From Bacteroidota bacterium (GTDB lineage Bacteria > Bacteroidota > Bacteroidia > AKYH767-A > 2013-40CM-41-45): 64,000 bases of DNA. The DNA is taken from contig SHNE01000048.1 in assembly GCA_004295015.1 (NCBI GenBank), positions 1 through 64,000 of the forward strand. Reading direction: 5' to 3'. The notes under the pieces are model-generated. The model searched no databases. It had not been told where the DNA came from and saw nothing but the letters and a program-made list of their open reading frames with translations. Below, piece by piece: positions 34,345 to 47,695 of this stretch (its first letter is position 1; each line of letters starts with the position of its first letter). The position numbers and the translations under genes were made by a program.

Positions 34345-37300
34345 TTATGAAAGGATTAGCGGAACTGTAAGGCGTAAGGTCGTCCCTTTACCAGGGATTG
34401 ATTTGACATCCAGTTTGCCATTCATCATCGAGGCTCTTTCCTTCATTCCCAACAGTCCAAATGTCTTGTTTGTAAAACCATCTGAAATTTCAAAACCTTT
34501 TCCATTGTCTGAAATTATCAATTCCATATTGCCATTTTTTTGATTTAATTGAGCAGACACATTGTTAGCACCTGCGTGCTTGACAACGTTAATCAGACTT
34601 TCCTGAAATATTCTAAAAATACCGATGGAAATTTTTGAATCAAGATTTGGTTCGTCCATTGTAATATGAAAATCAAAATTGATATTTGTTCGTCGCTCAA
34701 ATTCTTTAACCTGATGTTCCAGCGTTGCAAACAGGCCAATGTCATCCAGTAAGGAAGGTCGTAGCTCAGAATTAATTCTTCTTACACTTGAAACTGAACT
34801 ATCGATCAATTCTTTAATATCTTTAATCAGCTTTTGAGCTTTTTCATTATCTCCGATATATCCTGATAGCCTTGAAACATCTATCTTAATTGCAAGTAGC
34901 TGTTGACCAATTTCATCGTGTAATTCCCTTGATAATGCCAGTCTTTCTTCCTCTCTTATGTTTTGAAGGTGTGTGGTGAGCTGACGGAGTTGTATCGTGT
35001 ATTCAGCAATTTTTTGTTGAGCTTTGATTTGATCGTCTATATCTTTATAAAATATTGAACACATTGGTTCTCCATCTATATCCATAATAGAAGTACTTAC
35101 CAAAAGATTTACAATTTCTCCATCTTTCCTGATGTGCTTTGATTCAAATTGTAGATGTCTTTCTCTCAGGGTTTCGTCGAATCGTTCCAATCTTCCATCT
35201 GCTGATTTATTCAATTTTAAATCGTTAACTGTCATATTCAATAGTTCCTCTCTTGAATAACCGCTTGTCTGACAATAGGAAGGATTTACCTCAATGATTT
35301 TACCATTCCTGTCAGCCAGCATAAAACCATCCATCATCGTATTTATTACTTGAGCATTTCGCTGGAGCGCTAATTGTTTTTCAAGCTCATACTTTTTAGA
35401 TTCGGTGATGTCTTCGGCGTATCCATATTCGGTTAGATTTCCATTAGCACTTTTAACCACATTTGCTTTAGCTTTAATCCATCTGATACTCCCATCCGGT
35501 TTGATAATGCGATAGCTAATAATATTGAAAAGCGTTGTTGAAATATTCTTGTGTGCAGCAATAACCTTTTGTTTATCTTCAGGATGAACAGATTCAATAA
35601 AGGATGATGGATTTCTATAAAGCTCAGTACCTTTTTTTCCCCAGATAGTCTCATAAGATGGACTTATATACAGTGTTTGATGAGATTTGATATCGTTTAC
35701 CCAGTACACCCCCGGGATGTTTTCTATTAAGTTCTGAAACTGAAGTTTTGAATTGTATAATTCAGTTTGCTCCTTTTTTCTTGCAGTTATATCCTTCGCA
35801 AATACAAGAATTTTATTTGGTTCAATTAATTTCGATGTTACTTCTACAAGAATAGGGTCACCTTTTTTCTTTTTTAGTAAGCGTTCAGATGTCGTTGTTA
35901 AACCTTGATTGACTTCCTCAAATTTGAATGGTACTTTTTCTATATCTTTTTTATATACCAGATCGAATATTGATAAATTACTTAGCTCCTTAGATGTGTA
36001 TCCTGACATTTTGCAAGTGCTACTGTTGACTGATTTAAAATTCCCTTTTTGATCAATAATAAATATGGCATCAGAGGCCTGCTCAACCAAGGTGCGGTAT
36101 TTTTGTTCACTTTTAATTAGCTCTTTTTCTGCTTCAACACGTTTTGTATGATCAATGACAGTTCCCTGGAATTTTATTGCTTTCCCTTTCGAATTACAGA
36201 TAACTTCTAACTCAACGGAAACATAGCGGATTTCTCCATTTCGGTGTTGAACTCTGTATTCCATACTTGCGTCCTTCTTTGTCCTTTCAATCTCTTTAAC
36301 GAGTTTATTATGGTAAGCCCTATCATCAGGATGCAAACAATTTATAACAGCCTGGTAGTTGATTTTAGTTCCCTTTTTAAGGCCATAAATTTCAAACATC
36401 CGATCTGACCAGAAGACCTCATCTTTTGTAATATCCCATTCCCAGAAACCAATTTTACCAATCCGTATAGCAGCTTCAGTTTTTTTTCTGAAACTGTTAA
36501 TCTGAGCATCTGTTTTCTTTTTCTCAGTGATATCTCTGAAGTAGATTGATAGCCCGGTCGGAGAAGGGTAGATGTGGTTTTCAAACCATTTGCCGAGTGG
36601 CGCATAAAATTCTTCCACAAATTTATACTTCTGTTCTCGCATCGACTGTTTATACGCTTTATGAAAAATCTGAGCGTCTTTTGCATCGAATTCGGAACAA
36701 ACATGCTTACCAATAACCGTTGCAGGATCTATATTGAATATTTGAGCTGCTTTTTTATTCATGTAAGTATATCGCCATTTTGTGTCAAGTGCTACAAATC
36801 CATCTGTGATTCTACTTAATGATGTTCGATAATTCTCTTCTGCTTTGCGTAAATTATTTTCTATGGTTAACTTTAAGGTTATATTTTCAGCTACCACCAA
36901 AAGCGAGTGTATTTTTTTCTTATCGGTAAATAGAGGGACGGTTTTATATAGATAGTCCTGATCATCTATTTTCATGTGAAAAGTTTGTGGATGTCCATTG
37001 AAAGTTTTATCATAGGCCTCAACAACTTTGTTCACGAATTTTTTGCCTAAACGCTTTAAGCTTTCCTGAACAGTCATTCCCATATAGGAATCCGGACACA
37101 AATTATTTTTATTGAATTCTTCTCCACCGGCATATTGAATGATGTAATTTGTGTCTACAATTGCAACATAGGATTTTGGGAAATTGTTAGTAACAATTCT
37201 TAACATCTCGTCACTGTTAATAGATTTTCCCGCTGCTGTTTTTTTATATTGAAAGGTGGTATATTTTGTCTTTAATGCAAGTTGGCCAAGAATATTTTTC

Positions 37301-37761
37301 AATACTGCTGGCAACAGGGCGAGATTTTTTTTCAGGATGTATTCTCTGATTCCTAATTTTAAACTTAATGAAAGAGCTTCCTCATTTATCTTATTCAATA
37401 ATAGTATTATCGGTAAATTGTGTCTTGCCGTAATAGACCGTAGTTTGACATAATCTTTCAGCCCCGATTTTTGATCGACAATAATTAAATCTGATTTGAA
37501 TTTTTTTACATGATTAGCCAAACTATCTAAATCATCAAAAGCATGAAGTGTGAACTTCTTGTTCAGTTTGGATTTTACCTGATGTTCGTCCCCTTTTATG
37601 GAACTGAATAGAATAAGATTTAATTCATTAATCATCCGGATCAGATTAGGATAAAAGAGTACGGAATTGTCTTTATAAAAATATACATAATTATAAATCC
37701 CATGTGTTTCTACAGTGATTATAAATGCCTGAAAAACAGCCATAAGCGTGATTTTAGACAT
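34345..37761 (-). CDS. six-PAS sensor histidine kinase with degenerate receiver (NarL-type HK)
   Basis: The 1138-residue protein begins with a degenerate receiver-like domain (about 45-165: IIVDQKSG keeps the Asp, but the acidic pair and the Thr are missing). It has six PAS/PAC repeats (about 180-915) and a HisKA_3 dimerisation domain with phospho-acceptor His948 (SRELHDEIGQ). A HATPase_c domain follows with N (LINVVKHAG), G1 (DNGKGFEI) and G2 (GLLGMKERA) boxes. No transmembrane segment is evident, so it senses in the cytosol, as redox or light sensors do. No response regulator is adjacent. A start inside the first 40 residues is possible. Confidence 0.9.
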   Translation of the reverse strand: MSKITLMAVFQAFIITVETHGIYNYVYFYKDNSVLFYPNLIRMINELNLILFSSIKGDEHQVKSKLNKKFTLHAFDDLDSLANHVKKFKSDLIIVDQKSGLKDYVKLRSITARHNLPIILLLNKINEEALSLSLKLGIREYILKKNLALLPAVLKNILGQLALKTKYTTFQYKKTAAGKSINSDEMLRIVTNNFPKSYVAIVDTNYIIQYAGGEEFNKNNLCPDSYMGMTVQESLKRLGKKFVNKVVEAYDKTFNGHPQTFHMKIDDQDYLYKTVPLFTDKKKIHSLLVVAENITLKLTIENNLRKAEENYRTSLSRITDGFVALDTKWRYTYMNKKAAQIFNIDPATVIGKHVCSEFDAKDAQIFHKAYKQSMREQKYKFVEEFYAPLGKWFENHIYPSPTGLSIYFRDITEKKKTDAQINSFRKKTEAAIRIGKIGFWEWDITKDEVFWSDRMFEIYGLKKGTKINYQAVINCLHPDDRAYHNKLVKEIERTKKDASMEYRVQHRNGEIRYVSVELEVICNSKGKAIKFQGTVIDHTKRVEAEKELIKSEQKYRTLVEQASDAIFIIDQKGNFKSVNSSTCKMSGYTSKELSNLSIFDLVYKKDIEKVPFKFEEVNQGLTTTSERLLKKKKGDPILVEVTSKLIEPNKILVFAKDITARKKEQTELYNSKLQFQNLIENIPGVYWVNDIKSHQTLYISPSYETIWGKKGTELYRNPSSFIESVHPEDKQKVIAAHKNISTTLFNIISYRIIKPDGSIRWIKAKANVVKSANGNLTEYGYAEDITESKKYELEKQLALQRNAQVINTMMDGFMLADRNGKIIEVNPSYCQTSGYSREELLNMTVNDLKLNKSADGRLERFDETLRERHLQFESKHIRKDGEIVNLLVSTSIMDIDGEPMCSIFYKDIDDQIKAQQKIAEYTIQLRQLTTHLQNIREEERLALSRELHDEIGQQLLAIKIDVSRLSGYIGDNEKAQKLIKDIKELIDSSVSSVRRINSELRPSLLDDIGLFATLEHQVKEFERRTNINFDFHITMDEPNLDSKISIGIFRIFQESLINVVKHAGANNVSAQLNQKNGNMELIISDNGKGFEISDGFTNKTFGLLGMKERASMMNGKLDVKSIPGKGTTLRLTVPLILS

Positions 37762-37892: not shown

Positions 37893-37936
37893 AGATTGCT
37901 TATACATTAGGTAAATTTTAAAATTCTGCCAGAGGG

Positions 37937-38515
37937 TTGGCAGATTATTTTATCAAAGATTCATGCAGTATCTTGTCAGAAATATTTTCCGTGGAATTTA
38001 ATCAGCTCTATACTTTGCATAAGGATATGGTATTTAATTTATCCTTGCAGTACGTGCAGAATGTTGAAGATGCTGAAGAAATTACGCAGGATGTTTTTCT
38101 TTCTATCCATCGGAATTTGGATAAGTTTAGGCAAGAAGCGGATTATTCAACCTGGATTTACCGCATCGCTATCAATAAATCCCTTGATTTTATCAAAAGG
38201 AAAAAAAGAAAGAAGCGCTTCGCCTTTTTGACTTCCCTGTTTTATGAAGATGGCAATGCAATTAAACATGACCATTCAGACTTCAGCCATCCCGGAGTTG
38301 CACTCGAACAAAAGGAATCAGTTGCCTCTTTGTTTAAGTTGATTAATGAACTGCCTGAAAAACAGAAAACCGTGTTAATATTATTAAAGATTGATGGCCG
38401 ATCACAGAAAGAAGCAGCATTAATAATGAATTTGACAGAAAAAGCCATTGAGTCTTTGTTGCAAAGGGCTAAAAAGAATTTGGACATCAAGCTTGCTAAA
38501 ACGAAGGATTTGTAA
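37937..38515 (+). CDS. ECF RNA polymerase sigma factor
   Basis: The 192-residue protein has sigma region 2 (about residues 25-95: YTLHKDMVFNLSLQYVQNVE, DAEEITQDVFLSIHRNL, STWIYRIAINKSLDFIKRKK) and region 4 (about 130-190: LPEKQKTVLILLKIDGRSQK, EAALIMNLTEKAIESLLQRA). No regions 1.1 or 3 are present, as in ECF factors. The assigned start is TTG at 37937, with AGAGGG just before it. It is the first gene of a six-gene plus-strand run. Its size and its two small membrane-associated neighbours match the CnrH/CnrY/CnrX arrangement. It probably controls this operon and perhaps the downstream efflux genes. Confidence 0.92.
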   Translation: MADYFIKDSCSILSEIFSVEFNQLYTLHKDMVFNLSLQYVQNVEDAEEITQDVFLSIHRNLDKFRQEADYSTWIYRIAINKSLDFIKRKKRKKRFAFLTSLFYEDGNAIKHDHSDFSHPGVALEQKESVASLFKLINELPEKQKTVLILLKIDGRSQKEAALIMNLTEKAIESLLQRAKKNLDIKLAKTKDL

Positions 38516-38547
38516 TTAACTATCGTCTAACCTCACAAACAAGAAGA

Positions 38548-38817
38548 ATGAAAATCGAAGAAAAATTGGATTTGTTGAGAACTATTCAAAAGGTTGAGGC
38601 TCCACCTTACCTCTTTACACGGATTGTGGCGAAAATTAAGAATGAACCGGAAGTAGAGGTTTCAACCGGCAAAATTACAGCTATTGGTCTCGCTTTATTT
38701 ATATTGCTACTTGTCAATATTGCTATAATCAGCAATAATGTTAGCCGGAAGAATTCTCAAACCGGAATTGCCCAATCTTATGGCTTAAGTTCAACTAACT
38801 CGTTTTACCATGACTAA
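38548..38817 (+). CDS. one-TM small protein, candidate anti-sigma factor
   Basis: This 89-residue protein has an N-terminal charged region (residues 1-45), one transmembrane helix (about 46-63) and a short periplasmic tail. Its length and N-in topology resemble CnrY (about 95 aa), the anti-sigma factor of the Cupriavidus nickel/cobalt system. Sequence similarity to CnrY is not evident by eye. It starts 32 nt after the sigma gene and its 3' end overlaps the sensor gene by 8 nt. The anti-sigma role is inferred from context and topology only. Confidence 0.7.
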   Translation: MKIEEKLDLLRTIQKVEAPPYLFTRIVAKIKNEPEVEVSTGKITAIGLALFILLLVNIAIISNNVSRKNSQTGIAQSYGLSSTNSFYHD

Positions 38818-39256
38818 ATTAGCAGTTTCAAGAACCATAGCCATAATCTTGTTGGTTCTAAATCTTAGTTTAATTTCACTTCTCCTCTTCAAAAAACCTC
38901 CACGTCCGGAAGGACCAAGGAATCTCATTATTGAAAGACTTGCCATGGATGAAAATCAGGTATCAGCCTATGATGAATTAATTAAAATGCATCAGGATCA
39001 GATTCGATTAGCTGATTTGCAGATTATCAAGTTGAAAAAAACCTTGTATTCAACTTTGCATTCTGATTCCGTCGGTGATTTGAAAGATTCTTTAATCTAT
39101 AAACTGGCAGATGCTCAATCCAAAATTGAAGAAATACATTACAAGCATTTTATCGACATCAAAAAACTCTGTAAGCCTGATCAAATTCCTCGGTTCGAAC
39201 TCCTGACTCAGGATCTTGCAAATTATTTTTCACCCAAAGAGAGAAGGAGGAAATAG
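38810..39256 (+). CDS. membrane-anchored Spy/CpxP-like periplasmic metal sensor
   Basis: The 148-residue protein has an N-terminal anchor (about residues 8-27), a Pro-rich linker and an all-helical periplasmic hairpin. It belongs to the Metal_resist/Spy/CpxP type (LAMDENQVSAYDELIKMHQD and the late CKPDQIPRFELLTQDLANYF). Candidate metal ligands are Met60-His61, His84, His110 and His113 (EIHYKHF) and Cys121. Its length equals that of CnrX (148 aa), the nickel/cobalt sensor. It probably binds a metal and releases the sigma factor through the 89-aa partner. Ligand identity is unknown. Confidence 0.78.
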   Translation: MTKLAVSRTIAIILLVLNLSLISLLLFKKPPRPEGPRNLIIERLAMDENQVSAYDELIKMHQDQIRLADLQIIKLKKTLYSTLHSDSVGDLKDSLIYKLADAQSKIEEIHYKHFIDIKKLCKPDQIPRFELLTQDLANYFSPKERRRK

Positions 39257-39257
39257 A

Positions 39258-39947
39258 TTGAAGAAATTCTTGGTCTTTTGCGTTTTCTTGCTGAGCCTTT
39301 ATTCATCTCATGGGCAAAATGATACTGTCCATTTTGAGATTAATTTTACTTTCAACAAGGAGGATCTGCAATTGAATAAATATTATTTATTGAACGGAAC
39401 CGACTCAGTAGAGATCAACACCTTGAAGTTTTATATTTCAGCTATTTCACTCTTGCATAATGGTGAAACTGTGTGGAAGGAAGCCAACAGCTTTCATTTG
39501 ATAGATGCTGAACTGAATAAAAGCACAAAGTTCGATCTTGCAGTCAAAGAGGGTGTCATTTACGATAAGTTTCGTTTTAATTTGGGGATTGATAGTCTGA
39601 CGAATGTTTCCGGTGCCATGGGAAATGATCTTGATCCTTCAAAAAATATGTATTGGACCTGGCAGAGTGGATATATCAATTTTAAACTGGAAGGTCGCTC
39701 GAATGTTTGTTTGGCAAGGAAGAATGAATTTAAATTTCATTTAGGAGGATATCAGTTCCCCTATAATTGTATACAGCAAGTTGAATTCACTCTGCCCCAA
39801 CCGGATCTCATTCATCTTCAAATCGACCTTGCTGAAATTATTTCTGAACTAAGATTCGGTGAACTGGACCATATTATGTCGCCATCTTTTTCTGCAATGG
39901 AATTGTCTTCAAGCATAGCAAAGAAAATTCGACTCCGGATACCATGA
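39258..39947 (+). CDS. MbnP-like periplasmic copper-binding protein
   Basis: The start is most likely the TTG at 39258, one base after the preceding stop, because it begins a clean signal peptide (LKKFLVFCVFLLSLYSSHGQ read with fMet). The 229-residue protein has the MbnP family pattern: VHFEINFTFNKEDLQLNKYY, LKFYISAISLL, and the hallmark MYWTWQSGYINFKLEG near the middle. In methanotrophs MbnP binds copper after MbnH converts a Trp to kynurenine. The gene overlaps the MbnH-like gene by 4 nt (ATGA), supporting a joint function. The Trp modified here is not identified. Confidence 0.8.
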   Translation: MKKFLVFCVFLLSLYSSHGQNDTVHFEINFTFNKEDLQLNKYYLLNGTDSVEINTLKFYISAISLLHNGETVWKEANSFHLIDAELNKSTKFDLAVKEGVIYDKFRFNLGIDSLTNVSGAMGNDLDPSKNMYWTWQSGYINFKLEGRSNVCLARKNEFKFHLGGYQFPYNCIQQVEFTLPQPDLIHLQIDLAEIISELRFGELDHIMSPSFSAMELSSSIAKKIRLRIP

Positions 39948-40966
39948 AGAAGTCATTCATACTGCTATTCATTTATGTTTATTTATTTTCCTCGTTCCGG
40001 ATTTTGAACGAAAAAAGTTTTATTGTACCCACAGGATTTCCGGAACCTGCTTATGATTTTTCAAAAAACATATTGACTACTGAAAAGATTGAACTGGGAA
40101 GAGCTCTGTTTTATGATCCGATTTTATCCCGCGACAATAGCATTTCCTGCTCATCTTGTCATTCTGTATACAATTCCTTCGCTCACACGGATCATGATCT
40201 TAGTCACGGGATAGACGATCTTATCGGGACAAGAAATGCTCCTGCATTGATTAATCTGGCCTGGCATAAGAGCTTCATGTGGGATGGAGCCGTAAACCAT
40301 CTGGAAGTACAAGCATTGGCTCCTATTACTCATCCCAAAGAAATGGATGAGAGTATGAACCATATAGTTTTTAAGTTATCTCAATCGGATCTGTATACAA
40401 AGCTATTTATGAATGCTTATAACGATACTTCAATTACCGGAGAGAAAATTTTAAAGGCCCTCACTCAATTTCAGTTGATTTTTGTCTCATCTTCTTCCCG
40501 GTACGATAGTATGACCCAAAAGCAAATAAAGTTTACATACCAGGAAGAGAACGGATACAATTTATTTAAAAAAAATTGCAATACCTGTCATGCAGAACCG
40601 CTGTTTAGTACCTATACCTTTGCAAACAATGGTTTAGGATTGGATACGACTCTTAATGATTTTGGAAGAATGCAAATCACGAAGGAGCGGAGTGACTCAC
40701 TCAAATTTAAAATTCCTACTCTCAGAAACATTGAGTATTCACCACCCTATATGCACGACGGCCGATTCAAGAGTCTCTTTGCAGTCTTAAATCATTATAC
40801 AAGCGGAATACATCAAACTACCAACCTTGCTCCGGAGCTTAAAAGTCCAATTATCTTATCGGAGAATGAAAAGGTTGATTTAATTGCATTTTTACTCACA
40901 TTGAGTGATAAAAAATTTATCTTCAATCCTGATTTCAGTTATCCAAGAGAATTATTTGCGAAATAG
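39944..40966 (+). CDS. MbnH/MauG-like di-heme c-type cytochrome (CCP family)
   Basis: The 340-residue periplasmic protein has a signal peptide and two haem motifs, CSSCH (69-73) and CNTCH (212-216). Other CCP/MauG-family motifs are GRALFYDPILSRDNSISC, the GTRNAPALINLAWHKSFMWD block and a final TLRNIEYSPPYMHDG. It should be a di-haem enzyme using peroxide or O2 to form a bis-Fe(IV)-like oxidant. Its 4-nt overlap with the MbnP-like gene argues that it is the MbnH that modifies MbnP, rather than a free peroxidase. The activity is inferred. Confidence 0.85.
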   Translation: MKKSFILLFIYVYLFSSFRILNEKSFIVPTGFPEPAYDFSKNILTTEKIELGRALFYDPILSRDNSISCSSCHSVYNSFAHTDHDLSHGIDDLIGTRNAPALINLAWHKSFMWDGAVNHLEVQALAPITHPKEMDESMNHIVFKLSQSDLYTKLFMNAYNDTSITGEKILKALTQFQLIFVSSSSRYDSMTQKQIKFTYQEENGYNLFKKNCNTCHAEPLFSTYTFANNGLGLDTTLNDFGRMQITKERSDSLKFKIPTLRNIEYSPPYMHDGRFKSLFAVLNHYTSGIHQTTNLAPELKSPIILSENEKVDLIAFLLTLSDKKFIFNPDFSYPRELFAK

Positions 40967-41018
40967 CGAGGGATCCGGAATTACATGTCGTCTAATTTTA
41001 TAAAACAATATCATCAAA

Positions 41019-42380
41019 ATGGTCAGAAAAATTTCATTACTCACGCTATTATCATATTTTAGTCTTTCAATGCAAGCTCAGACGAATCCGGCAATACTCT
41101 CCTGGTTACAGAATAATTCGGTCTTGGGTAGCTACTACATGCAGGGAAATTCTGTCGCTTTGTCAAACAACACTCTTGTTAACGTACAAACTGTACAGTA
41201 TTCAGCTAACTGGGTTTATGTTTCTACGCAAGGTATCCCTTCTTATCCGACCGGGCCCTTTCTTGATGGAAACCCGAGTCAGGCAACTGCTCGAAATGCC
41301 ATTTTCAAAATTCCGTTGAATCCGGTTCAGAATCCCGGAACGCCGACAAATACAAGTCCGGGTAATATTGGAATCTTTGTCAATGGAGTTGCACTGTTCG
41401 ATTACCGTGATGGTGTTTCCTGGAAAAATTCTACAAACTCACTTGCCGGTGGCCCGGGTGGGGGAATGGGAGATAATGTTTGGAATCGTGATGCTATTGT
41501 TGCAGAACGCGCCGGCTTCGACTGTTCTAAAGGTCATCCTGCTATGGGAAACTACCATCATCACCAGAATCCTTCAGCCTTTAAATTGGACCTTGTTGTG
41601 ATTTCTAACATTTGTAATTTGTATGATGCTGACGGCCTCTATGTGATCGACAGCACACAGCATTCACCGCTTATTGGTTTTGCCTACGATGGTTTTCCTA
41701 TCTATGGAGCTTATGCCTTTAAGGAAGTGAATGGAACAGGTGCTATTGTCAGAATGCAATCTTCTTATCAGCTCCGAAATATTACAACAAGAACTACGTA
41801 TGCAAATGGTTCCACCGTCACTCCCGGTCCTCCTGTGAGCTCGACCTATCCTTTGGGGTATTTCAGAGAAGATTATGAGTACATCGCGCATCCATCTGAA
41901 CCTGAATTTTTGGATGAACACAATGGAAGATTTTGTATCACTCCTGAGTATCCTGCAGGAACCTATGCATATTTTTGTACAGTAAACGAAAACTGGAATT
42001 CTGCCTATCCCTATGCCGTAGGGCCAACATTTTATGGAACGAAAGTGGCCTCTTCCGTGACTTCAATAACTGAAGCAGTTACCCAGTACAGCCCGGTTAC
42101 ATCTTCCATTTCTGAATCGGATTTTGAGGAACTGAACGTTTCCGTCTATCCCAATCCAGCCGGTGATTTAATTGCCGTTCAAATAAAAGGATTACTCAAA
42201 GAAGATCTTATTGTAAAACTATTTGATTTATCAGGTAAGCTAATCGCCGAATCAGGAATTACAAAAGGAAGTACAATTGCTTACTTTGATACCCGTACCT
42301 ATTATTCAGGAATGTATTTGTTGAAGGTGAGTAAAGGTGACATGGAGCTCAGCCGAAAGGTTTCAATCAATAGAAACTAA
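41019..42380 (+). CDS. T9SS-secreted YHYH-domain protein
   Basis: The 453-residue protein has a signal peptide (residues 1-20), the YHYH domain (about 85-320, containing HPAMGNYHHHQNPSAFKLDL, YDADGLYVIDSTQHSPLIGF, AYDGFPIYGAY) and a T9SS sorting tail (VYPNPAGDLIAVQI). The His-rich segment could bind a metal ion. YHYH proteins of Bacteroidota often occur beside MbnP and copper genes (recalled), and here the gene follows the MbnH-like gene after 52 nt. It is probably the outermost, surface-displayed member of the metal operon. Confidence 0.82.
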   Translation: MVRKISLLTLLSYFSLSMQAQTNPAILSWLQNNSVLGSYYMQGNSVALSNNTLVNVQTVQYSANWVYVSTQGIPSYPTGPFLDGNPSQATARNAIFKIPLNPVQNPGTPTNTSPGNIGIFVNGVALFDYRDGVSWKNSTNSLAGGPGGGMGDNVWNRDAIVAERAGFDCSKGHPAMGNYHHHQNPSAFKLDLVVISNICNLYDADGLYVIDSTQHSPLIGFAYDGFPIYGAYAFKEVNGTGAIVRMQSSYQLRNITTRTTYANGSTVTPGPPVSSTYPLGYFREDYEYIAHPSEPEFLDEHNGRFCITPEYPAGTYAYFCTVNENWNSAYPYAVGPTFYGTKVASSVTSITEAVTQYSPVTSSISESDFEELNVSVYPNPAGDLIAVQIKGLLKEDLIVKLFDLSGKLIAESGITKGSTIAYFDTRTYYSGMYLLKVSKGDMELSRKVSINRN

Positions 42381-42739: not shown

Positions 42740-42780
42740 AACGGGTCTGTCTTAATTTCAGGACAGGCCCGTTTTCTTTT
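42740..42780 (+). terminator. strong intrinsic terminator
   Basis: AACGGGTCTGTC (42740-42751) and GACAGGCCCGTT (42762-42773) form a 12-bp stem with one G-T pair and a 10-nt loop, followed by TTCTTTTATCC. It directly follows the 70-aa gene and separates the sigma operon region from the efflux unit. Confidence 0.85.
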
Positions 42781-42885: not shown

Positions 42886-43263
42886 GTGAAAAAAGCTTTG
42901 GCTCTGCTCTTATTTTCTGCATACCTGATCTCAACAACTGAGATTGGTCAGCTTCTTAAATTGCCTCTGCTAATTGAGCATTTTTTTAAGCATAAAGAGC
43001 AAAGTGAAAGTCATTCGATCTACGACTTTTTCAGTATGCATTATGGCGAACATGCCGGATCAGACAAGGAGCATGAAAAGCTTCCTTTTAAATCACATGA
43101 TGGATGCATAAATTCCATATTGCTCGTTTCTGTTTCTAACACATTTTCTGCTCCGTCCATCAGTTCATTTTCTTTTGAAATAAAAACTTTTAATTTTTAC
43201 GACGACTTATTTTTAACTTCCTCCTTCCAGGCCAACATTTGGCAGCCTCCAAAATTCAGCTGA
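42886..43263 (+). CDS. small His-rich exported protein of the efflux operon
   Basis: The 125-residue protein starts at GTG 42886, where a signal peptide (KKALALLLFSAYLIS) begins immediately. The region LIEHFFKHKEQSESHSIYDF continuing into MHYGEHAGSDKEHEK has eight His residues in about 40 positions and several acidic residues, and later there is a single DGCIN. It ends NIWQPPKFS. Small proteins of this kind directly precede czcA-type genes in other Bacteroidota (recalled). It is 82 nt ahead of the pump gene. Periplasmic metal binding or delivery to the pump is the likely role, unproven. Confidence 0.75.
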   Translation: MKKALALLLFSAYLISTTEIGQLLKLPLLIEHFFKHKEQSESHSIYDFFSMHYGEHAGSDKEHEKLPFKSHDGCINSILLVSVSNTFSAPSISSFSFEIKTFNFYDDLFLTSSFQANIWQPPKFS

Positions 43264-43345: not shown

Positions 43346-46300
43346 ATGCTAAATAAAATAATAGAATTCTCGATAAAGAATAAGCTCATTATTGGACTTT
43401 TTGTCATTGGCCTAATCATATATGGATCCTTCCAGATAACAAAATTACCAATTGATGCCGTCCCTGACATCACAGATAATCAGGTACAGGTAATTACCAT
43501 TGCTCCATCCTTTGGCGCAACTGACATAGAGCGACTCATTACTTTCCCAATCGAGCAGGCGAATAGTAATATTGATGGCATAAAAGAAATTAGAAGTTTT
43601 TCCCGCTTTGGGCTTTCTTTGGTTACTATAGTATTCACTGATAAGACAGATATTTATTGGGCCAGACAACAGGTTGCAGAACGATTGGCGCAGGTACAAT
43701 CTCAAATTCCTCAGGGTATCGGAACACCTGAATTAGGACCTATTTCTACAGGCCTTGGTGAAATTTATCAATATGTAATCAGGCCTGAGCCCGGATTTGA
43801 AAATAAGTACAACGAAACTGATCTGCGAACTATACAGGATTGGATTGTGAGAAGGCAGTTGTTGGGTGTGAAAGGTGTAGCGGAGGTAAGCAGTTTCGGT
43901 GGAAAAGTTAAGCAGTACGAAATTGCCGTCGATGCAAACAGATTACAGGCCTTTAATATTAATATTAATGATGTCTTCTCTGCTGTTGAAAAGAATAATC
44001 AGAATACCGGAGGAGCCTATATTGAAAAAGGACCGACGGTATTATTTATTCGTAGTGAAGGCTTGATTGGAAGTAAAGAAGACATAGAGAATATTTGTAT
44101 AGAGAATGCTGAAGGAGAAATGCCTTTATTCATCCGGGATGTGGCAGAAGTGAAGATAGGGCATGCAACGCGTTTTGGCGCCATGTGTTATAATGATGAA
44201 GGGGAAGTGGCAGGTGCCATCGTAATGATGCTTAAAGGGGGGAATAGCAATGAAGTCATTAAGAATGTAAAAGACAGAATAGCGCAGATCCAGAAAACTT
44301 TACCCGAAGGTGTAATTATTGAACCATTTTTAGATAGAACTAAAATGGTGAATAATGCAATCTTTACGGTAGAGAAGAATTTATTGGAAGGTGCACTCAT
44401 CGTGGTGTTTATCCTCGTTTTGTTTTTAGGAAATTTCAGGGCAGGTTTTTTGGTCGCTTCGGTCATTCCGCTTTCAATGCTTTTTGCAGTTTGTATGATG
44501 AATGCATTTGGAGTAAGCGGGAACCTTATGAGTCTTGGAGCTCTTGATTTTGGATTAATTGTCGACGGAGCAGTAATTATTGTAGAAGCAGTAATGCATC
44601 AACTGGCTCACATTAAGCGACCTGGTTTGTCTGACAAGCTCGAGCAACATGAAATGGATTCTAAAGTTAAGGATTCTGCAAGTAAAATGATGAACAGTGC
44701 AGTTTTTGGACAAATTATAATTCTTATTGTATACCTCCCGATACTAACACTTCAGGGCATTGAAGGAAAAATGTTTAAGCCCATGGCTCAAACTGTTGCC
44801 TTTGCCTTGCTTGGTGCTTTTATTCTTTCCCTGACGTACATACCAATGATGAGTGCTTTAGTACTGAGCAAAAAAGTTAAACATGCTCCAAATATGTCAG
44901 ACAAAGTGATGTTTCGTATTGAAATGTTTTTTCAAAAAACTTTATCCGGAGTTTTGAATTTTCCTAAAGCCGTTCTTTCCATAGTCTTAATTTTGTTCGT
45001 GCTTGCTATTTTTACACTTTCAAGGATGGGAGGCGAATTTATTCCCGCACTCGAAGAAGGTGATTTTGCCGTAGATACAAGAGTGCTTACAGGTAGCAAT
45101 CTAACTACTACGATCGAAGCTACACAGAAAGCGGCTCATATTTTGAAAACTCAATTTCCTGAAGTCGAAAAGGTAGTCACCAAAATTGGTAGTGGGGAGG
45201 TTCCGACAGATCCCATGCCAATGGAGGCAAGCGATATGATGGTTATTCTAAAACCTAAAAAGGAATGGACTTCGGCCAAAACTTTTAATGAACTGGCAGA
45301 GAAGATGAGTAAAGCACTCGAATCAGTTCCCGGTATCACTGCCGGATTTCAATACCCTGTTCAAATGCGCTTTAATGAACTCATGACAGGTGCGAGGCAG
45401 GATGTAGTATGTAAAATCTTTGGCGAGAACCTCGATTCTCTGGCTGTCTATGCAGAAAAGTTGGGAAAAATTGCTTCAAAAGTTGAAGGTAGTCAGAATT
45501 TATTTGTTGAACCGGTGACAGGTATACCACAAATCATTATAGAGTTTAATCGGGCATCAGTTGCACAATACAAATTAAATATTTCTGATATAAATAAGAT
45601 TATAAATACAGCTTTTGCCGGACAAGTATCAGGATTGGTTTTTGAAGGGGAGAGGCGATTTGATTTAGTTGTTAGATTGAAGGACGAAAAGCGGAGAAGC
45701 CTGAGAGATGTTCAGAATCTTCTTATACCTACACCTCAAGGCTCTCAAATTCCTTTAGGACAACTTGCAACGGTTAAATTACAAGACGGGCCAAATCAAA
45801 TTCAACGTGAAGATGCAAAACGACGGATTGTAGTCGGGTTTAATGTCAGAGGACGAGATGTCCAGAGTATAGTGAATGAACTGCAGGAAAAGGCAGATAA
45901 GCAATTAAATTTACCTACAGGCTATTTTATTACCTATGGAGGAGCGTTTGAAAATTTGAATGCTGCCAAGAATCGACTGATGATTGCAGTCCCTATTTCG
46001 TTGTTGTTGATTTTTATTCTATTGTATTTTGCCTTTAGTTCTATCAGGCATGGATTGTTGATTTATACTGCTATTCCTCTTTCAACCATAGGTGGAATAT
46101 TCTTTTTAGCGATGCGAGGTATGCCATTCAGTATTAGCGCCGGTGTTGGTTTCATTGCCTTGTTTGGCGTTGCAGTCTTGAATGGAATTGTCTTAGTAGC
46201 CGAATTCAATCGACTTAAAAAAGTGGGAAGTCAGGATCTTAGAAGAATCGTACTCATGGGAACTAAAATTCGTTTGCGACCGGTATTGATGACTGCATTT

Positions 46301-47695
46301 GTCGCTTCGCTAGGATTTTTGCCAATGGCATTGAGCAATGGAGCAGGAGCAGAAGTTCAAAAACCATTGGCAACGGTTGTAATTGGTGGATTACTCATTG
46401 CCACATTCCTTACACTCTTTGTCTTGCCAATATTGTATATCATGTTCGAGAAAGGTGGAAGATTAAATGTTTCAGCTAAAAGCCTGATGGTGGCTTTTCT
46501 GTTCTCCTTTTCGATTCTGACCGCAGACGCACAGACCCCAATCAGTCTCCAGGCTTCCATTGATACAGCTCTTAAAAGCAATCTTCTTATAAAAAATGAA
46601 ATCTTGAAGGAGGAGTATCATAAGAAGCTCCGGAATTCAGGAATTTCAATACCTCATACGAATGTAGCATTTGAGGGAGGAGAAATAAATAGCGCCTATA
46701 CAGATAGCAGGTTTTCTATTGTACAATCCTTCAGTTTTCCTACTGTGTATTCCAGGCAAAGGAAAGTCCACACTGAAGAATGGAAACTGGCAATGTTTAG
46801 CACAGATTTGAAAGAAGCTGAGATCAAAAGAGCAGTTGCACAAAAATTCAGTTCAATTTTGCTTTTGAAAGAGAAAGAGAAGTTATTGACTGAGGCGGAT
46901 AGCAACTTTTCTGCATTTCTTGTGAAAGCCAATGCCCGTTTTCAAAGTGGAGAAAGCAATATATTAGAGAAAGCAACTGCCGAAAGCCAACAAGCTCAAG
47001 TAAGGTTGCAACTAAGATCTCTTCAGCAAGAACTTGAGTTAAACCGACTTGAGTTCCAATTATTGCTTAATACAGAAACAATACTCGACCCAACAAGCGA
47101 TGTACTCAGGTTTTCTTCACTTATTATCTCAGATAGTCTTGATGTCAATACGCATCCAATTTTGAAATTATCAGATCAACAAAAAAGTCTCGCTAAAGGA
47201 ATCACCAGGCTGGAGAGAGCTAAATTAATTCCGGAGATTAGTCTTGGATATTTTAATACGAGCATGCGTGGTACGGGAGCTGATGACATTTATTATCCAA
47301 GAGAAAGTCGCTTCAGCTCAGTTGAAATTGGAGTAGGCATACCCTTGTTTTTTGGATCTCAGAAATCAAAAATCAGAGCTTCAAGGGTAAATGAGCTTAT
47401 TGCAGATAATAATCATCGAATGCAAGTTCAAAATCTCAGGAAGGAATATCAGGCTGCTCTGCTTCAATATAAAAGCAGTTTGGCAAAGGTTAATTATTTT
47501 GAAGAAAGTGGTATGCTAAATTCAAAATTAATTTCAACTACCGCTTCTCAGCAATTTTCTTCCGGTGAGATAAACTATTTAGACTGGGTGCTTTTGAATA
47601 ATCAGGCTTACTCCATCCAGAATGATTATCTGGAATCTTTAAATTTATTAAATGAAAGTATTATCCTTATTAATTATCTTACTTCTAAACAATAG
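43346..47695 (+). CDS. czcA: CzcA-type RND heavy-metal efflux pump fused to TolC-like outer-membrane factor
   Basis: The first ~1035 of 1449 residues form a complete HME-RND pump with two large periplasmic loops and twelve membrane helices. Helix-4 motif DFGLIVDGAVIIVEA (Asp401, Asp407, Glu414) is the divalent-cation (Zn/Co/Ni) type, not the Cu/Ag CusA type; the usual final Asn is Ala. A second, signal-peptide-like segment (residues 1048-1062, FSILTADAQ) then introduces a TolC-like domain (about 1065-1449) of paired long helices and outer-membrane strands. The fusion is known among Bacteroidota CzcA proteins (recalled). The adaptor gene starts 4 nt after its stop. The TolC half must reach the outer membrane, so cleavage is likely. 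Confidence 0.92.
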   Translation: MLNKIIEFSIKNKLIIGLFVIGLIIYGSFQITKLPIDAVPDITDNQVQVITIAPSFGATDIERLITFPIEQANSNIDGIKEIRSFSRFGLSLVTIVFTDKTDIYWARQQVAERLAQVQSQIPQGIGTPELGPISTGLGEIYQYVIRPEPGFENKYNETDLRTIQDWIVRRQLLGVKGVAEVSSFGGKVKQYEIAVDANRLQAFNININDVFSAVEKNNQNTGGAYIEKGPTVLFIRSEGLIGSKEDIENICIENAEGEMPLFIRDVAEVKIGHATRFGAMCYNDEGEVAGAIVMMLKGGNSNEVIKNVKDRIAQIQKTLPEGVIIEPFLDRTKMVNNAIFTVEKNLLEGALIVVFILVLFLGNFRAGFLVASVIPLSMLFAVCMMNAFGVSGNLMSLGALDFGLIVDGAVIIVEAVMHQLAHIKRPGLSDKLEQHEMDSKVKDSASKMMNSAVFGQIIILIVYLPILTLQGIEGKMFKPMAQTVAFALLGAFILSLTYIPMMSALVLSKKVKHAPNMSDKVMFRIEMFFQKTLSGVLNFPKAVLSIVLILFVLAIFTLSRMGGEFIPALEEGDFAVDTRVLTGSNLTTTIEATQKAAHILKTQFPEVEKVVTKIGSGEVPTDPMPMEASDMMVILKPKKEWTSAKTFNELAEKMSKALESVPGITAGFQYPVQMRFNELMTGARQDVVCKIFGENLDSLAVYAEKLGKIASKVEGSQNLFVEPVTGIPQIIIEFNRASVAQYKLNISDINKIINTAFAGQVSGLVFEGERRFDLVVRLKDEKRRSLRDVQNLLIPTPQGSQIPLGQLATVKLQDGPNQIQREDAKRRIVVGFNVRGRDVQSIVNELQEKADKQLNLPTGYFITYGGAFENLNAAKNRLMIAVPISLLLIFILLYFAFSSIRHGLLIYTAIPLSTIGGIFFLAMRGMPFSISAGVGFIALFGVAVLNGIVLVAEFNRLKKVGSQDLRRIVLMGTKIRLRPVLMTAFVASLGFLPMALSNGAGAEVQKPLATVVIGGLLIATFLTLFVLPILYIMFEKGGRLNVSAKSLMVAFLFSFSILTADAQTPISLQASIDTALKSNLLIKNEILKEEYHKKLRNSGISIPHTNVAFEGGEINSAYTDSRFSIVQSFSFPTVYSRQRKVHTEEWKLAMFSTDLKEAEIKRAVAQKFSSILLLKEKEKLLTEADSNFSAFLVKANARFQSGESNILEKATAESQQAQVRLQLRSLQQELELNRLEFQLLLNTETILDPTSDVLRFSSLIISDSLDVNTHPILKLSDQQKSLAKGITRLERAKLIPEISLGYFNTSMRGTGADDIYYPRESRFSSVEIGVGIPLFFGSQKSKIRASRVNELIADNNHRMQVQNLRKEYQAALLQYKSSLAKVNYFEESGMLNSKLISTTASQQFSSGEINYLDWVLLNNQAYSIQNDYLESLNLLNESIILINYLTSKQ

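Follow-up and report, generated by a model that had tools for sequence, protein, structure and literature searches.

The CnrYXH and NccYXH systems of Cupriavidus metallidurans, which sense nickel and cobalt, comprise an extracytoplasmic function (ECF) sigma factor, a short anti-sigma factor with one transmembrane (TM) helix and a membrane-anchored sensor. ECF control is also described for methanobactin operons, which carry MbnI (an ECF sigma factor) and MbnR (FecR-like) near MbnP and MbnH, while isolated mbnPH pairs occur near homologues of MbnI and MbnR (PMC3621798). The current study concerns six genes at positions 37937–42380 of a 64,000-nucleotide stretch (hereafter the window) of contig SHNE01000048.1, from the 3.86 Mb, 56-contig genome of a member of the Bacteroidota, in which a module of ECF sigma factor, putative anti-sigma factor and sensor stands ahead of genes for an MbnP-family protein, an MbnH-like di-haem enzyme and a YHYH-domain protein. 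Based on the findings below, we read this locus as a Bacteroidota regulon in which an ECF sigma factor responds to metal in the envelope, with a probability of roughly 0.6.

According to the open reading frame (ORF) list of the window, the six genes follow one another in the same direction on the + strand, either overlapping slightly or separated by short gaps: the anti-sigma and sensor genes overlap by 8 bp and those for MbnP and MbnH by 4 bp, while 1 bp separates the sensor gene from that of MbnP. Only two gaps are larger, namely 32 bp upstream of the anti-sigma gene and 52 bp upstream of the YHYH gene, and it is here that two copies of a promoter-like element were found. The first, P1 (38502–38530, + strand; CGAAGGA-N15-CGTCTAA, exact), lies about 20 bp upstream of the anti-sigma ATG with its -35 half within the 3′ end of the sigma gene, while P2 (40967–40995, + strand; CGAGGGA-N15-CGTCTAA, one mismatch) directly follows the MbnH stop codon, upstream of the YHYH gene. 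In a pattern scan that allowed for lineage variants (CGAAGGA, CGAATGA, CGCAAGA or CGCAAGT with CGTCTAA or CATCTAA) and at most two mismatches, the element was present upstream of the anti-sigma gene in 43 of 45 loci and upstream of the YHYH gene in 30 of 39; the same scan found it upstream of the sigma gene itself in 10 of 49 loci and in 4 of 131 internal-gene windows (sensor 2/52, MbnP 1/39, MauG 1/40). The two sites of one genome carry the same variant, their summed distance being 31 as against a permuted mean of 65.4 and minimum of 41 (10,000 permutations). Genome-wide scans with the pattern CGAAGG-N4-30-CGTCTAA produced 47 matches across the 24 genomes that carry the sensor; 33 of these shared one spacer length, which occurred in none of the nine matches from 20 relatives without the sensor.

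Exact enumeration of k-mer pairs upstream of sigma genes yielded an overall signal that was not above shuffles, but one weak pair, CGAAG-N17-CGTCT, pointed the way to the element, and the element itself is sited upstream of the anti-sigma gene rather than the sigma gene. A reversed-pattern control at one mismatch returned as many matches as the element itself; since reversal changes the CpG content, the spacing spectrum was used as background, and this spectrum, the distal sites described below and the internal-gene windows serve as independent controls. From its position and its co-occurrence with the module we infer that the element would be read by the module’s own sigma factor.

A search for the sensor across 199 related genomes gave matches in 40, and the 20 closest relatives were inspected for gene order. 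MbnP and MbnH directly follow the sensor module in 14 of these 20, and YHYH comes next in 11 of the 14; two of the other three loci end at a contig edge and one (L038) has its YHYH gene elsewhere. At L043, L046, L054 and L057 the module precedes a short YHYH protein and then two small genes, which Pfam identifies in L043 and L054 as a MORN-repeat protein and SCO1/SenC, while at L053 it precedes a multicopper oxidase exported by the type IX secretion system (T9SS). These genomes span approximately 11 Bacteroidia families besides that of the window. Flavobacterium paronense CECT 8460 (L094) likewise carries the operon, with the element variant CGCAAGA-N15-CGTCTAA/CGTCAAA. Viewed in reverse, from 80 MbnH loci of which 72 have enough upstream sequence, the sensor was present in 18 of the 72, and the presence of sensor and YHYH was associated (odds ratio 10.5, Fisher p 0.0012; 61 loci). 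That an unrelated sigma module came to lie beside copper genes by chance might be argued from the fact that MbnP-MbnH pairs without the sensor are common among the MbnH loci and that the module is also found solitary (L049), but that proposal is already refuted by an order kept in many families, by a promoter element that is shared and co-varies and by the spacing spectrum, and we consider it almost certainly wrong. The adjacency noted in the preliminary description is far above chance, the same gene order recurring across many families. Because of the conserved neighbourhood and the shared promoter element we conclude, on the basis of sequence, that the module and the genes for MbnP, MbnH and YHYH are one regulatory unit.

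The module is patchily distributed, as the sole same-genus genome searched (G001) has neither the sensor nor any CGAAGG-N4-30-CGTCTAA match. The window’s own genome holds two further MbnP-MbnH pairs without a sigma module (L058:7652–9483 and L059:9281–11088). Sensor-less MbnP-MbnH operons of Chryseobacterium and Sphingobacterium have Cys-containing membrane proteins of approximately 120 aa encoded upstream (L144:3443–3808, L144:1118–1477 and L126:3641–4018), which fit no Pfam family clearly and are reminiscent of CruR-like copper leaders. The possibility that TonB-dependent receptors replace the module at sensor-less MbnP-MbnH-YHYH loci was dropped since, judged by sequence appearance, the 727-aa upstream gene resembles a RecQ helicase and the others are unrelated.

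The 148-aa protein (38810–39256, + strand) is predicted to be a membrane-anchored sensor with the fold of CnrX, its soluble domain comprising residues 30–148. The protein itself had no family match in library scans, and PF13801 (Metal_resist) was matched by 14 of 26 of its relatives (best E 4e-13). An AlphaFold2 model based on an alignment of these 26 relatives (pLDDT 92) contains a TM helix and a four-helix domain, and its first six Foldseek matches in the PDB are all CnrX (best E 5.5e-3). VIA-align placed model residues 35–142 on CnrX 40–148 (Z 11.6 over 105–108 residues); helical bundles reach middling Z values easily, and weight was put on the rank of CnrX, the full domain coverage and the PF13801 matches in relatives. 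It might be proposed that the module instead responds to envelope stress, the 148-aa protein being a Spy/CpxP-like chaperone or stress sensor and MbnP, MbnH and YHYH being envelope repair or surface proteins rather than copper proteins. Spy is indeed the best PDB profile match (E 0.008), Spy and CpxP are also fold matches, and the CotH, VTC and urea transporter-M23 genes of the regulon are not obviously copper-related; however, CnrX outranks both of them in the fold comparison, conservation is strong at His61, His113 and Cys121, and the targets MbnP, SCO1 and multicopper oxidase indicate copper, and we regard an envelope-stress role as quite improbable.

Among 52 sensor sequences, His61 is retained in 50, His113 in 50, Cys121 in 47, Glu107 in 46, Gln125 in 52 and Asn18, within the TM helix, in 51. 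His61 and His113 face each other at the same height in a predicted hairpin (helices 48–84 and 89–120), and this helix register, as distinct from coordinates, suggests that they may form a bis-His site. The metal ligands of CnrX are, as we understand it, H42, H46, E63, H119 and M123. An alignment to NccX by two methods sets His113 of the window protein on His119, Ile58 on Glu63 and Ile117 on Met123. The preliminary description of a CnrHYX-like module is upheld as regards fold, CnrX being the best match, and gene layout, while it fails as regards the ligand set. Because only H119 is conserved, metal specificity is not transferable from CnrX; by analogy, the sensor would work like CnrX with a near-invariant His61/His113/Cys121 set of its own.

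Concerning the remainder of the module, the sigma ORF contains Sigma70_r2 (E 1e-15) and Sigma70_r4_2 (E 2e-14) according to Pfam, and in its longest form extends to 192 aa from a TTG at 37937. Since homologous ORFs are mostly 170–180 aa and a terminator-like hairpin (37925–37944, + strand; hairpin scan, consensus match only) covers this TTG, the GTG at 37991 is probably the true start, giving a 174-aa protein (37991–38515, + strand). The agreement in size previously advanced for CnrHYX (192 versus 191 aa) does not count as evidence, and matching gene sizes is in general a weak argument. Diverging from the sigma gene on the - strand is a 1138-aa ORF (window 34345–37761) which resembles a multi-PAS sensor histidine kinase. 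The 89-aa protein (38548–38817, + strand), a putative anti-sigma factor by position and alignment, had no family match in library scans and no solved-structure match in a PDB profile search; CnrY was not found in the PDB with the profile of its family, the protein being too short and divergent for this to count for or against a CnrY-type (class II) anti-sigma factor. Alignment of its relatives shows three common features, namely the N-terminal stretch L..I.KVE.P.FL.TRI, a TM helix and, in the periplasm, a short tail that finishes in N-x-L/F-Y, of which Tyr87 is invariant in 17 sequences, and this tail is a candidate contact for the sensor.

The proteins encoded downstream are more readily classified. 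The MbnP-family protein (39258–39947, + strand; TTG start) matches PF20243 (E 1.3e-42, 146 bits versus a cut-off of 27) and its alignment displays a WxW motif, with W133 invariant and W135 in at least 90% of sequences, and an invariant H161. The MbnH/MauG-like enzyme (39944–40966, + strand) matches CCP_MauG (PF03150, E 3e-50) and has two haem motifs, CSSCH and CNTCH (C69-H73 and C212-H216), and at the distal-ligand position a Tyr285 that is invariant in 17 sequences and aligned with a Tyr of PDB 6e1c, which we take to be the MbnH structure. Kynurenine-dependent copper binding by MbnP together with MbnH was reportedly described by Manesis et al. in 2021, and the MbnH of this locus probably oxidises a WxW tryptophan of its MbnP to kynurenine. 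The YHYH protein (41019–42380, + strand) combines PF14240 (E 2.5e-57) with a T9SS sorting domain (Por_Secre_tail, PF18962), and its His173, His180, His182 and Asp168 are invariant in 22 sequences; YHYH proteins have in common three His and one Asp, residues for which Zn binding has been predicted (PMC7824862). No fold is claimed for it, as its structure model has a pLDDT of 66 and the best Foldseek matches cover only small Ig-like or T9SS-tail-like domains. The preliminary description had classed all six genes correctly, and they stand as ECF sigma factor, one-TM protein, a sensor with the predicted fold of CnrX, MbnP, MbnH-like di-haem enzyme and T9SS-exported YHYH protein.

Beyond the locus, the element lies upstream of YHYH genes in genomes G039, G194, G156 and G163 and upstream of CotH-LTD-T9SS genes in G030 and in the window’s own genome (C4:7484), where an exact copy precedes the CotH kinase-LTD-T9SS gene L183:3035–5311. 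Further distal sites precede a CotH-like ORF in G156 (by resemblance), a VTC/DUF4956-like/CotH cluster in G103, MauG-type genes in G078 and, with one mismatch, G062, and a multicopper oxidase cluster in G147, again with one mismatch. A urea transporter-M23 gene stands behind the element in G163, together with PLP decarboxylase and ATP-grasp genes, and by resemblance in G081; the stretches concerned are L195:1094–5916, which also includes a small PqqD-like ORF, and L188:3688–6142, and a gene set like that of L195 adjoins distant sensor modules in L062 and L065. Chance may account for at least two other distal sites, which in G015 lie at genes for a peptidase M43 and a PKD protein. CotH genes recur behind the element across genomes.

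Downstream of the unit and a 70-aa ORF, a strong terminator-like hairpin (42740–42773, + strand; hairpin scan) is followed by a 125-aa His-containing ORF at 42886 and by a CusA/CzcA-type RND pump of 1449 aa with a fused C-terminal TolC-like outer-membrane factor (43346–47695), which overlaps a CusB-type adaptor at 47652. This CusA-TolC fusion and CusB were rejected as targets of the regulon: the element is absent, the hairpin intervenes and a CusA/CusB match was obtained in 0 of 80 MbnH loci.

We propose that the anchored sensor is paired with the 89-aa anti-sigma factor, which would hold the sigma factor. Binding of a metal in the periplasm, most probably copper, at or near His61/His113, with Cys121, would alter the sensor; by analogy to CnrYXH this change would be relayed, perhaps via the N-x-L-Y periplasmic tail of the anti-sigma factor, and the sigma factor released to transcribe from CGAAGGA-N15-CGTCTAA promoters. 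P1 would then drive the anti-sigma, sensor, MbnP and MbnH genes, combining negative feedback with output, and P2 the YHYH gene, while distal sites would drive more YHYH, CotH and MauG-type genes, as well as operons of multicopper oxidase or SCO1 genes in relatives. A tryptophan of MbnP would probably be converted by MbnH, enabling MbnP to bind copper, and the YHYH protein, exported by the T9SS, would probably bind metal at the cell surface.

Our preference for copper is based on the repeated appearance of MbnP, SCO1 and multicopper oxidases among the targets. The same families, being copper proteins, argue against a signal of Zn, Ni, Co, Fe or Mn, to be handled by the MbnP site or YHYH; CnrX and NccX respond to Ni/Co and the ligand set of the sensor is new, and the predicted Zn binding of the YHYH domain (PMC7824862) would also suit another metal, which we nevertheless consider unlikely. 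As to the direction of the response, we lean slightly towards a switch thrown by metal excess, as in CnrX, rather than by shortage, as for methanobactin genes. CnrX-type switches are turned on by metal, which speaks against a copper-starvation acquisition operon in which the sigma factor would be released at low copper and MbnP, MbnH and YHYH would scavenge copper at the surface. In its favour, one variant operon (L054) contains SCO1 and a TonB-dependent receptor, MbnPH occur in methanobactin operons and CorA/CorB-type pairs are copper-repressed (PMC3621798). The genes of 727–899 aa upstream of sensor-less MbnP-MbnH-YHYH loci, however, are not receptor-like, and we hold starvation control to be conceivable though doubtful. 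The fullest form of the envelope-metal reading, in which a CnrX-like copper-sensing sigma factor with a bis-His and Cys sensor site commands a dispersed Bacteroidota regulon via one element and brings together the tryptophan-to-kynurenine conversion in MbnP and the YHYH, CotH and multicopper oxidase proteins exported by the T9SS in an undescribed programme of copper handling at the surface, falls somewhat short of an even chance in our estimation.

Several points weigh against the interpretation as a metal-responsive regulon. Some of the loci counted had also served to discover the motif and to choose its variants, such that the anti-sigma and YHYH counts are not entirely independent. Of the five ligands of CnrX, a single one is retained in the sensor (H119, equivalent to H113 of the window protein). 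MbnP reaches 35 bits with NCBIfam TIGR04052 (cut-off 140) and MbnH 199 bits with TIGR04039 (cut-off 363), and falling below these cut-offs both are distant from the characterised pair. The CotH/VTC/DUF4956-like and urea transporter-M23/PLP decarboxylase/ATP-grasp members have no obvious copper role. Finally, the sequence itself supplies the operon, the promoter element, the members of the regulon and the predicted fold, while metal identity, response direction, sigma-promoter recognition and MbnP modification are deductions.

The regulon provides the barely studied YHYH family with a regulatory context and connects MbnP/MbnH of organisms other than methanotrophs with a dedicated metal-sensing sigma factor, while the promoter element allows the whole regulon to be predicted and tested in cultured Flavobacterium. 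Given that only 6% of Bacteroidota ECF sigma factors have class I anti-sigma partners (PMC7406223), the module may also help to explain how such sigma factors are controlled. The suggestion that no earlier system joins a metal-sensing sigma factor to MbnP/MbnH must be tempered in view of MbnI/MbnR (PMC3621798), and holds for the CnrX-like sensor, which, like the shared promoter and the YHYH/CotH regulon, was not found in the literature searched, most subscription journals lying outside its scope. The copper-linked regulon is apparently undescribed.

In comparison with CnrYXH/NccYXH, the locus shares the adjacency of its three module genes, the CnrX-like sensor fold and the equivalent of His119, while the gene order is sigma-anti-sigma-sensor, counterparts of H42, H46, E63 and M123 are absent, His61 is particular to this sensor family and the targets are MbnP/MbnH/YHYH rather than an RND efflux operon; it would work like CnrYXH yet fails two of its defining features, the ligand set and the RND target. 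As in the MbnI/MbnR/MbnT methanobactin operons (PMC3621798), an ECF sigma factor and a membrane anti-sigma regulator lie beside an MbnP-MbnH pair, although those operons sense by FecI/FecR/TonB-transporter and the present locus has a CnrX-like sensor without a methanobactin gene or receptor. The characterised MbnP-MbnH pair likewise consists of a PF20243 MbnP bearing WxW and, next to it, a MauG-like di-haem enzyme whose distal-ligand position is occupied by Tyr; the two proteins of the present locus, however, do not reach the NCBIfam equivalog cut-offs, and kynurenine is here a prediction. Lastly, CruR/DUF2946-headed operons (PMC9426467) likewise set MbnPH-like, SCO and other copper genes behind a copper regulator; theirs is an upstream ORF acting post-transcriptionally, whereas control at the present locus would be exerted by a sigma factor and its promoter.

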